Of a stretch of DNA of 64,000 nucleotides, positions 56,945-59,212 are shown in pieces; within the stretch, counting starts at the first letter, position 1; the number at the start of each line of letters is the position of its first letter. The translations under genes and the position numbers were made by a program. The notes under the pieces were generated by a model. The model ran no database searches and had not been told where the DNA came from. It saw only the letters and a list, made by a program, of their open reading frames with translations. The DNA comes from Candidatus Nitrosotenuis chungbukensis (lineage in GTDB: Archaea; Thermoproteota; Nitrososphaeria; Nitrososphaerales; Nitrosopumilaceae), in assembly GCF_000685395.1 (NCBI RefSeq), contig NZ_AVSQ01000013.1, positions 1-64,000 on the forward strand, in the 5' to 3' direction.

Positions 56945-57544
56945 ATGACAGACGCACCAAATCTTTTGTTATTTAGAAAATGGGATCTTACTGGTATAGA
57001 AATAAAGGATCCTGGACTTAAAACCACAATCTCGCTTAAAAAATCAGTAATGCCGTTGACATTTGGCAGATCCTCGCTTAAACGATTTAACAAACTCGAG
57101 GTAAACATTGTAGAACGACTTGCAAACAAGCTTATGCACTTTGGAAAAAAGTATGCAAAAAACACTGGAAGAATGGGCGGCAAAAAGGCACGTACAATCA
57201 ACACTGTCAAGGCCGCATTTGATATAATACACCTAAAGACTGGCAAGAACCCAGTTGAGGTACTAGTCCGAGCAGTCGAATACTCGTCACCAAACGAGGA
57301 TACTACAAGAATCGTTTACGGTGGCACTGCGTACCATGTATCAGTTGATGTTTCTCCTCTAAGACGGGTTGATCTTGCATTAAGATTTATCGCAGATGGC
57401 GTAAAAGAAGCAACATTTTCAAACCCAAGATCAATGGAAGAATACCTGGCAGACCATCTCATTGCGGCATCGACAAACGATGGAAACGCACCATCTGTTA
57501 AGAAAAAGAATGAATTAGAAAGAATAGCGCAAGCATCCAGATAA
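56945..57544 (+). CDS. rpsG: 30S ribosomal protein S7 (uS7)
   Basis: 199 aa small-subunit head protein near the E site. Typical pieces: LANKLMHFGKKYAKNTGRMGGKKA, KTGKNPVEVLVRAVEYSSPNEDT, GGTAYHVSVDVSPLRRVDLALRFIADG and EYLADHLIAAS. Archaeal length. Last gene of the L30e-NusA-S12-S7 run; the convergent tRNA-Gln begins 8 bp after its stop. Confidence 0.96.
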   Translation: MTDAPNLLLFRKWDLTGIEIKDPGLKTTISLKKSVMPLTFGRSSLKRFNKLEVNIVERLANKLMHFGKKYAKNTGRMGGKKARTINTVKAAFDIIHLKTGKNPVEVLVRAVEYSSPNEDTTRIVYGGTAYHVSVDVSPLRRVDLALRFIADGVKEATFSNPRSMEEYLADHLIAASTNDGNAPSVKKKNELERIAQASR

Positions 57545-57587
57545 TTGTAAAGTAGCCCGAGGCAGATTCGAACTGCCGTCTCTGCCT

Positions 57588-57602
57588 ATCCACTCATAAG
57601 AT
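57588..57602 (-). other. tRNA-Gln intron 2 (canonical position)
   Basis: 15 nt reading ATCTTATGAGTGGAT on the tRNA strand, between G37 and A38. The bulge-helix-bulge is imperfect: bulges GG|A and AT|A, central helix CTCT with GTGG contains one mismatch, and mini-hairpin TC-TTAT-GA. Confidence 0.7.
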
Positions 57603-57618
57603 CCAGAGGGCAGAATCC

Positions 57619-57634
57619 TTAGTCTGAAATTCAT
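57619..57634 (-). other. tRNA-Gln intron 1 (non-canonical, D-loop)
   Basis: 16 nt reading ATGAATTTCAGACTAA. Bulge-helix-bulge fits well: exon GGTC pairs with intron GACT (one G-U), 3-nt bulges AA|A and AA|G give cuts that restore GGTCAA-GGATT, and inner hairpin TGA-ATT-TCA. Confidence 0.75.
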
Positions 57635-57682
57635 TTGACCGCTAGACTATCGGGCTACTGAAAAAACTGCAATATGTGTTGG

Positions 57683-57690
57683 ATATAAAA
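57683..57690 (-). promoter_or_regulatory. TATA box of tRNA-Gln
   Basis: TTTTATAT on the minus strand centred about 30 bp before the tRNA 5' end at 57656. Confidence 0.6.
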
Positions 57691-58011: not shown

Positions 58012-58040
58012 CCTTAGTGAACTACCGCCGGATGAATCCG
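58010..58040 (-). mobile_element. Candidate right end of the tnpB element
   Basis: A short inverted repeat CGGATGAATCCG (58029-58040) overlaps the 3' end of tnpB, followed past the stop (on the minus strand) by GGCGGTAGTTCAC. In IS605/IS1341 elements the guide-RNA scaffold ends at a hairpin near the tnpB stop. The exact boundary was not determined, nor was a left end. Confidence 0.35.
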
Positions 58041-59212
58041 ATAGTGTTTTTCTGTTTCCTTGACACTCTTAGTATCTCCACAGACGTAACTTCCCGCAGT
58101 TCCTGCGGTATGTTCAAACAATTAGAATTCAAATCGGCTCCACAAATTTCTAAACCCTTTTTCAAAATATTAATACTTGCATTATGATCTCTGTCAAGCA
58201 TCAAACCACAGATATTGCATTTGTGGATTCTAACTGCAAGTGATTTTGGTACTGCATTACCGCATCTTGAACAGTCCACAGTTGTATTTTTCGCCGTAAC
58301 CTCAATTAACATACATTTGTAGTCAAGCATATTTGTGAATGTGCCCCAACCGGAATCGAGTATTTTTCGCACCAGAAAGTGATTTTTTACCATGTTTAGT
58401 TTTTGTAATCTTTCCACAAACACTACATCGTATTTTTTTGCATATTTTGTTGATAGTTTGTGCAAAAAGTCCTTACGTCTATTTCTAATTCTCTCGTGAA
58501 TTATCTGATAGAATTTTATTGCTTTTTTTCTATTCTGTGATCCAATCTTGCGCCTCGCTATCTTTCGTTGAATTCTTGCAAGCGGTTTGAGCATTTTTTT
58601 AAGATTTAATGGGTTTGGTGTTACAAATCCATCAGAGTCATACACAAAATTTTTGATCCCGACATCAATTCCCACTGATTCTGAAAGATGAATTTCTGGT
58701 AGTACTACATCAACGTCGCAAGTAACACATGTATGCCATTTCCCTGACTTTGATTTTGAAACAATAACCTGTTTAATGTGGCCGTTAATTTCTCTATGTT
58801 TTCTGATTTCAATGTATCCTATTTTTGATAACCACAGAAGATTCACGCTTCCATGTTTTTCAAATTTGTATCCTGATTGGTTGTAAGTAAAAGTACGATA
58901 TTGATCATATTTGACAAATCCTATCTTGCCTACTTTGTATCCTTTTTTATTTAATTCAATTATTGATTTTTGAGCTGCGTCCAACTTAGTGGATATCATC
59001 TGTAGCATTTTAGCATGGTAATTGTAAAGCCACGATTCCTGCTGTTTTAACTCAGTCAGCATGTAGTTTAAGTCGTTTCTTGATACAAATCCATTTTGTA
59101 CATGTTCTACAAATTTGTTGTATACCCATCTACATACGTCTAAGTTATTTTGCAATCTCTTTTGTTGTTGTGGATTTGGATACAAGCGGAATTTGTAATT
59201 TCTTACACTCAA
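58022..59212 (-). CDS. tnpB: TnpB, IS200/IS605-type RNA-guided nuclease (no tnpA)
   Basis: 396 aa. N-terminal KFRLYPNPQQQKRLQNNLDV, RuvC I GIDVGIKNFVYDSDG (Asp), RuvC II VVFVERLQKLNM (Glu), zinc finger CSRCG...CNICG and RuvC III LMLDRDHNASINILKKG (Asp): catalytic D-E-D complete, so likely active. TnpB proteins cut DNA guided by an RNA made from the element's right end. No TnpA transposase is present, so the element is of the solo (IS1341-like) type. Starts at TTG (MSVRNYKF). Confidence 0.9.
   Translation of the reverse strand: MSVRNYKFRLYPNPQQQKRLQNNLDVCRWVYNKFVEHVQNGFVSRNDLNYMLTELKQQESWLYNYHAKMLQMISTKLDAAQKSIIELNKKGYKVGKIGFVKYDQYRTFTYNQSGYKFEKHGSVNLLWLSKIGYIEIRKHREINGHIKQVIVSKSKSGKWHTCVTCDVDVVLPEIHLSESVGIDVGIKNFVYDSDGFVTPNPLNLKKMLKPLARIQRKIARRKIGSQNRKKAIKFYQIIHERIRNRRKDFLHKLSTKYAKKYDVVFVERLQKLNMVKNHFLVRKILDSGWGTFTNMLDYKCMLIEVTAKNTTVDCSRCGNAVPKSLAVRIHKCNICGLMLDRDHNASINILKKGLEICGADLNSNCLNIPQELREVTSVEILRVSRKQKNTIGFIRR

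Follow-up and report, generated by a model that had tools for sequence, protein, structure and literature searches.

A tRNA-Gln(CUG) gene of Candidatus Nitrosotenuis chungbukensis with two short bulge-helix-bulge introns, one of them in the D-loop

Introns of archaeal tRNA genes have been reported at lengths of 11-175 nt (PMC2738675), a range in which the 15 and 16 nt of the two introns discussed here, called very short in the preliminary description of this locus, are normal. Several introns in one archaeal tRNA gene are likewise known (PMC3218864). Sets of non-canonical introns, which lie outside the position between tRNA nucleotides 37 and 38, are credited for Thermoproteales to Marck & Grosjean (2003) and Sugahara et al. 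(2008), both as cited in PMC8450103. To regard such introns as known mainly from Thermoproteales and Cenarchaeum, as was done at first, is too narrow, given that they are widespread in Thaumarchaeota, where tRNAscan-SE 2.0 counts 107 of them and uses a search model specific to the group (PMC8450103). Thaumarchaeota as a group have also been described with alpha2-beta2 endonucleases (PMC4090602, PMC3218864), and for Nitrosotalea devanaterra the genome paper mentions that a variety of tRNA genes have putative introns (PMC4836417).

The tRNA-Gln(CUG) gene of Candidatus Nitrosotenuis chungbukensis shares with the known non-canonical archaeal bulge-helix-bulge (BHB) introns their short length, a place outside 37/38, a BHB at the exon borders, the occurrence of several introns per gene and a lineage with heteromeric EndA, and we see no essential difference from them. 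Since the non-canonical BHB introns of Thaumarchaeota are an established class, for which the dedicated tRNAscan-SE 2.0 model exists, the gene is best seen as an ordinary member of it, real and correctly read. Both intron positions and the synteny with rps7 are the same in the tRNA-Gln(CUG) genes of Nitrosotalea devanaterra and an uncultured Cenarchaeum, whereas many Nitrosopumilus genes, unlike the one studied, lack the D-loop intron; across these three groups the orthologous introns differ in sequence and keep their helices. The two-intron arrangement is both real and old. Our preferred reading, which we hold at a probability of about 95%, is that the tRNA-Gln(CUG) gene is functional, present in a single copy and interrupted by two BHB introns, and that its precursor would be cut by a heteromeric EndA and its exons joined by RtcB.

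Architecture and identity of the gene

The gene lies in what we call the window, meaning the whole stretch of 64,000 nt that was analysed (Table 1). Read on the minus strand, exons and introns of 57553-57656 alternate as AGCCCGATAGTCTAGCGGTCAA + intron ATGAATTTCAGACTAA + GGATTCTGCCCTCTGG + intron ATCTTATGAGTGGAT + AGGCAGAGACGGCAGTTCGAATCTGCCTCGGGCTA. Removal of 57619-57634 and 57588-57602 leaves a tRNA of 73 nt with an acceptor stem of 7 bp (AGCCCGA/TCGGGCT), a D stem GTCT/GGAT, an anticodon stem CTGCC/GGCAG with the loop CU-CUG-GA, and a T stem of 5 bp (GGCAG/CTGCC). This division of a 104-nt locus by two introns is the one given in the preliminary description, and its boundaries are right to the base, as judged from the sequence read, from intronless orthologues and from the tRNA-Gln(UUG) of the same genome. 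To call the unspliced locus unfoldable, on the other hand, was too strong: a genome search with RF00005 matches it from end to end, at exactly 57553-57656, with 42.1 bits against a cut-off of 29, and the covariance model R1 scores the locus at 113.4 bits.

Table 1. Features of the tRNA-Gln(CUG) locus and its surroundings, in window coordinates
Feature	Position	Strand	Details
rps7 (ribosomal protein S7)	56945..57544	+	199-aa ORF; convergent, so that its end and the 3' end of the tRNA are 8 nt apart; a marker of synteny, outside the splicing unit
tRNA-Gln(CUG) gene, two introns	57553..57656	-	104 nt; A1 at 57656, discriminator A73 at 57553
Canonical-position intron	57588..57602	-	15 nt, ATCTTATGAGTGGAT; between tRNA positions 37 and 38
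Anticodon CUG	57604..57606	-	tRNA positions 34-36 in the spliced cloverleaf
Non-canonical D-loop intron	57619..57634	-	16 nt, ATGAATTTCAGACTAA; between tRNA positions 21 and 22
TATA-like box A	57684..57689	-	TTTATA; lies ~33-28 nt ahead of position 1 of the tRNA

Annotators should be warned that common tRNA finders overlook this gene or label it Leu. Neither ARAGORN nor an Rfam gathering scan reported it in the window, and the Leu(AAG) that ARAGORN called on an excerpt of the locus is a miscall. The identity first proposed, Gln(CUG), is upheld by the A1-U72 pair, by the anticodon loop CUCUGGA of the spliced product (CUUUGGA in the genome's tRNA-Gln(UUG)) and by this UUG paralogue. The same three features rule out tRNA-Glu(CUC), which was considered for the Glu-like D-arm; the presence of a separate tRNA-Glu(CUC) gene in the genome also counts against it.

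The genome, at 1.76 Mb and 98% completeness, holds one intact tRNA-Gln(UUG), with the D-loop AGCGGTCAA. Another intact tRNA-Gln(CUG), named at the outset as something that would speak against a functional gene here, was found neither by the RF00005 genome search nor by ARAGORN on excerpts. Given that CAG could possibly be read by tRNA-Gln(UUG) through wobble, essentiality of the tRNA-Gln(CUG) gene is not proven; the intron-bearing gene has apparently been lost in one genus.

Conservation of the exons, junctions and intron helices

Relatives found by sequence and by rps7 synteny show that the tRNA-Gln(CUG) gene is kept across Nitrosopumilaceae and beyond. Its convergent arrangement with rps7 recurs in 76 of 80 named relatives, the closest of which, by rps7, are Candidatus Nitrosotenuis MAGs, which places the window in a Nitrosotenuis-like ammonia-oxidising archaeon. 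Of 82 distinct upstream sequences, 73 have a TATA-like motif at -45 to -25, nearly always at -33 to -31. Splicing in silico yields 72 nt plus A73 in 75 of the 76 distinct orthologues and 74 in the other. Just upstream of the studied gene lies an IS605-type TnpB-like ORF of 396 aa (58022-59212 of the window, minus strand), judged by eye, with zinc-finger-like cysteines at its C-terminus.

The best evidence is comparative, and the junctions are shown by genes in which an intron is naturally missing. Many Nitrosopumilus orthologues are without exactly the D-loop segment and read GGTCAA-GGATT; three families of other orders of the class (f21, f22 and f24) likewise miss the D-loop intron, and orthologues without it read GGTCAA-GGAT or GGCCAA-GGAT. 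Two further families (f10 and f18) have a tRNA-Gln(CUG) with neither intron. These natural intronless forms, together with the genome's own intact tRNA-Gln(UUG), give both exon junctions independently of any argument from the BHB.

The earlier statement that the introns lie outside 37/38 holds for the D-loop intron, which is non-canonical, and not for the other, which sits at the canonical position. This canonical intron follows the pattern CUCUGG-intron-A in all 76 distinct orthologues parsed, at 13-25 nt, and its removal (57588-57602) gives a standard anticodon loop; intronless homologues read CUCUGGA or CUUUGGA. Its central helix, CUCU/GUGG, has three of four pairs, with the third mismatched, in this species and most relatives, which makes it a relaxed BHB; all four are paired in several relatives (GGGG, AGGG).

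The D-loop intron has a BHB composed of GGTC (57637-57640) and GACT (57621-57624), with bulges AA-A and AA-G, just as first described, and it has an inner helix TGA/TCA as well. The intron is present, at 13-25 nt, in 67 of 76 distinct orthologues, all of which keep the pattern, and the remainder lack exactly the predicted segment, so the pattern is not due to chance. Compensatory changes are seen in both the central and the inner helix. The central helix has four of four pairs in 49 of 49 distinct introns (5000 shuffles of partners: mean 41.9, maximum 47), the inner 3-bp helix is paired in 39 of the 49 (shuffled: mean 18.9, maximum 27), and, in a pair count over 15 diverse rows, 96.6% of cells are paired against 88.0% when shuffled, with 44 double-change cells against 11.4 (0 of 500 shuffles as high), although shuffle tests of this kind are inflated by relatedness among the sequences, for which reason we take these statistics as supporting rather than decisive. 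The 15-row count collapses when partners are slid, and it includes double changes at all three pairs of the inner stem.

Splicing enzymes and competing readings

A splicing endonuclease of broad specificity was taken from the start to be needed, with a heterotetrameric EndA as the thing to check for, and the genome does hold two EndA paralogues (PF01974 genes), an alpha that is catalytic and a beta that is missing the catalytic His; their assembly into a heterotetramer is predicted from the genes. EndA alpha aligns without gaps to the catalytic subunit of the A. pernix enzyme (3P1Z) over residues 7-180 (174 residues, E=1.6e-40), and it keeps the catalytic His of DHAP, the residue that is changed to Ala in the 3AJV chain. 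It also carries the extra crenarchaea-specific loop, in which its Lys39 falls in the column of Lys44, the number that we take to be that of the conserved loop lysine in A. pernix EndA. The likeness to the A. pernix (alpha-beta)2 endonuclease (3P1Z, 3AJV) thus consists of an ungapped alpha with the loop lysine and a second, non-catalytic paralogue, while the differences are that the present enzyme is thaumarchaeal and that its beta subunit finds its best sequence match among solved structures in M. jannaschii 1A79. A paper in the reference list of PMC3218864 announces by its title a role for the conserved lysine in the extra loop. Two RtcB homologues are encoded as well.

On the preferred reading, a heteromeric (alpha-beta)2 EndA would cut the precursor at both bulges of each intron, and RtcB would then ligate the exons into the 73-nt tRNA. 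The location of one site in the D-loop (21/22) and the imperfection of the other (37/38) imply that both would need the relaxed specificity of the heteromeric enzyme. That cleavage and ligation take place, in which order they do so, and that the product is charged with Gln, are points that we infer.

Three other readings have to be weighed against a functional, spliced gene. The locus could be a decaying tRNA pseudogene that has suffered two insertions, with its function taken over by tRNA-Gln(UUG), for which one might cite the intact tRNA-Gln(UUG) in the genome and the one streamlined genus that lacks the intron-bearing gene. Conservation of exons, promoter and synteny across the family, introns that vary and yet keep their helices, and relatives that miss exactly the D-loop segment while retaining the rest are not what a pseudogene would be expected to show, and this strong sequence evidence makes the pseudogene reading extremely improbable. 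Very unlikely, too, is that only the 37/38 intron is removed and that the mature RNA retains the D-loop segment, which would enlarge its D-loop. The segment varies in length (13-25 nt) and sequence with the BHB kept, it is absent from close sisters with an otherwise near-identical tRNA, and removing 57619-57634 restores a standard D-arm, with the archaeal tRNA-Gln D-loop found in the UUG paralogue.

What speaks for an enlarged D-loop is the computed folding of the precursor, the lowest-energy form of which, in this species, puts part of the segment into a D-arm-like stem: AGUCU of the D-arm and AGACU of the intron form this stem, in place of the BHB, in a fold of -36.5 kcal/mol, and a fold constrained to the D-loop BHB lies 1.9 kcal/mol higher. 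This result, like the mismatch in the 37/38 helix and the possible wobble reading of CAG, weighs against the preferred reading. The BHB helix dominates the computed ensemble of many relatives and not that of others. The same competing pairing reaches a probability of 0.84-0.92 in L031, L125 and L127, this species and two close relatives, and could be taken to act as a splicing switch that keeps the precursor unspliced under some condition in the Nitrosotenuis subgroup. This pairing is absent in most relatives, however, secondary-structure energies leave out tertiary contacts of the tRNA as well as bound protein, and a regulatory partner is not visible, and we therefore give a switch very little credence.

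Intron turnover among relatives

Within Nitrosopumilus, alleles with and without the D-loop intron are interleaved and patchy among close relatives (L164, L186, L193-L203 and their relatives), with exact, scarless boundaries. The best tree requires five changes of intron state in this genus, bootstrap replicates four to five, and a larger tree set that includes one very long branch four; at least three changes are forced by well-supported branches, among them the sister pair of an intron-bearing lineage (L194) and N. salaria (L195), which has none, with 100/100 support. These counts are of state changes, which may reflect loss, regain or allele exchange.

The streamlined genus g19 offers a different picture. 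Its genomes of 1.1-1.2 Mb (G034, G050, G211) yielded no intron-bearing tRNA-Gln(CUG); they carry instead an intronless tRNA-Gln(CUG) that is nearly identical to their own tRNA-Gln(UUG) (L237-L239, L244-L248), and that seems to be a recoded duplicate of it, with a changed anticodon, and to have replaced the intron-bearing gene. In both of these g19 tRNAs, position 33 appears to hold C instead of U, and the D-loop appears to be one base shorter.

A tentative and rather less likely than even proposal would bring these patterns together: the D-loop intron would be gained or lost rapidly and precisely (at least 3-5 scarless changes in Nitrosopumilus), which would suggest frequent conversion templated by spliced RNA or allele exchange between species, and the streamlined genus would have escaped both introns by recoding a copy of tRNA-Gln(UUG). 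The studied gene is a further, well-documented case of a known class, and what it offers beyond that is chiefly a natural series of alleles with and without introns. The occurrence of both alleles in sister species with culturable relatives makes this a convenient natural system for asking how archaeal tRNA introns get lost and whether they matter.

Introns are also found at further places in the D arm of tRNA-Gln in other families, near 10/11, 15/16 and 24-26 (L092, L096, L117, L120, L223, L229-L233), with up to three in one gene, which marks the D arm as a region of intron turnover. Other tRNA loci of the studied genome drew our attention as well. Its tRNA-Glu(UUC) (L109, G000:C2:51160-51219) has an apparent 15-nt intron inside the T-loop, for which the intact tRNA-Glu(CUC) (L012) serves as a comparison. 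Two loci below the tRNA cut-off, an Arg(CCU)-like one with a D-arm insertion (L108, G000:C9:53617-53680) and a tRNA-like one with long insertions (L110, G000:C24:17820-17867), look disrupted by introns.
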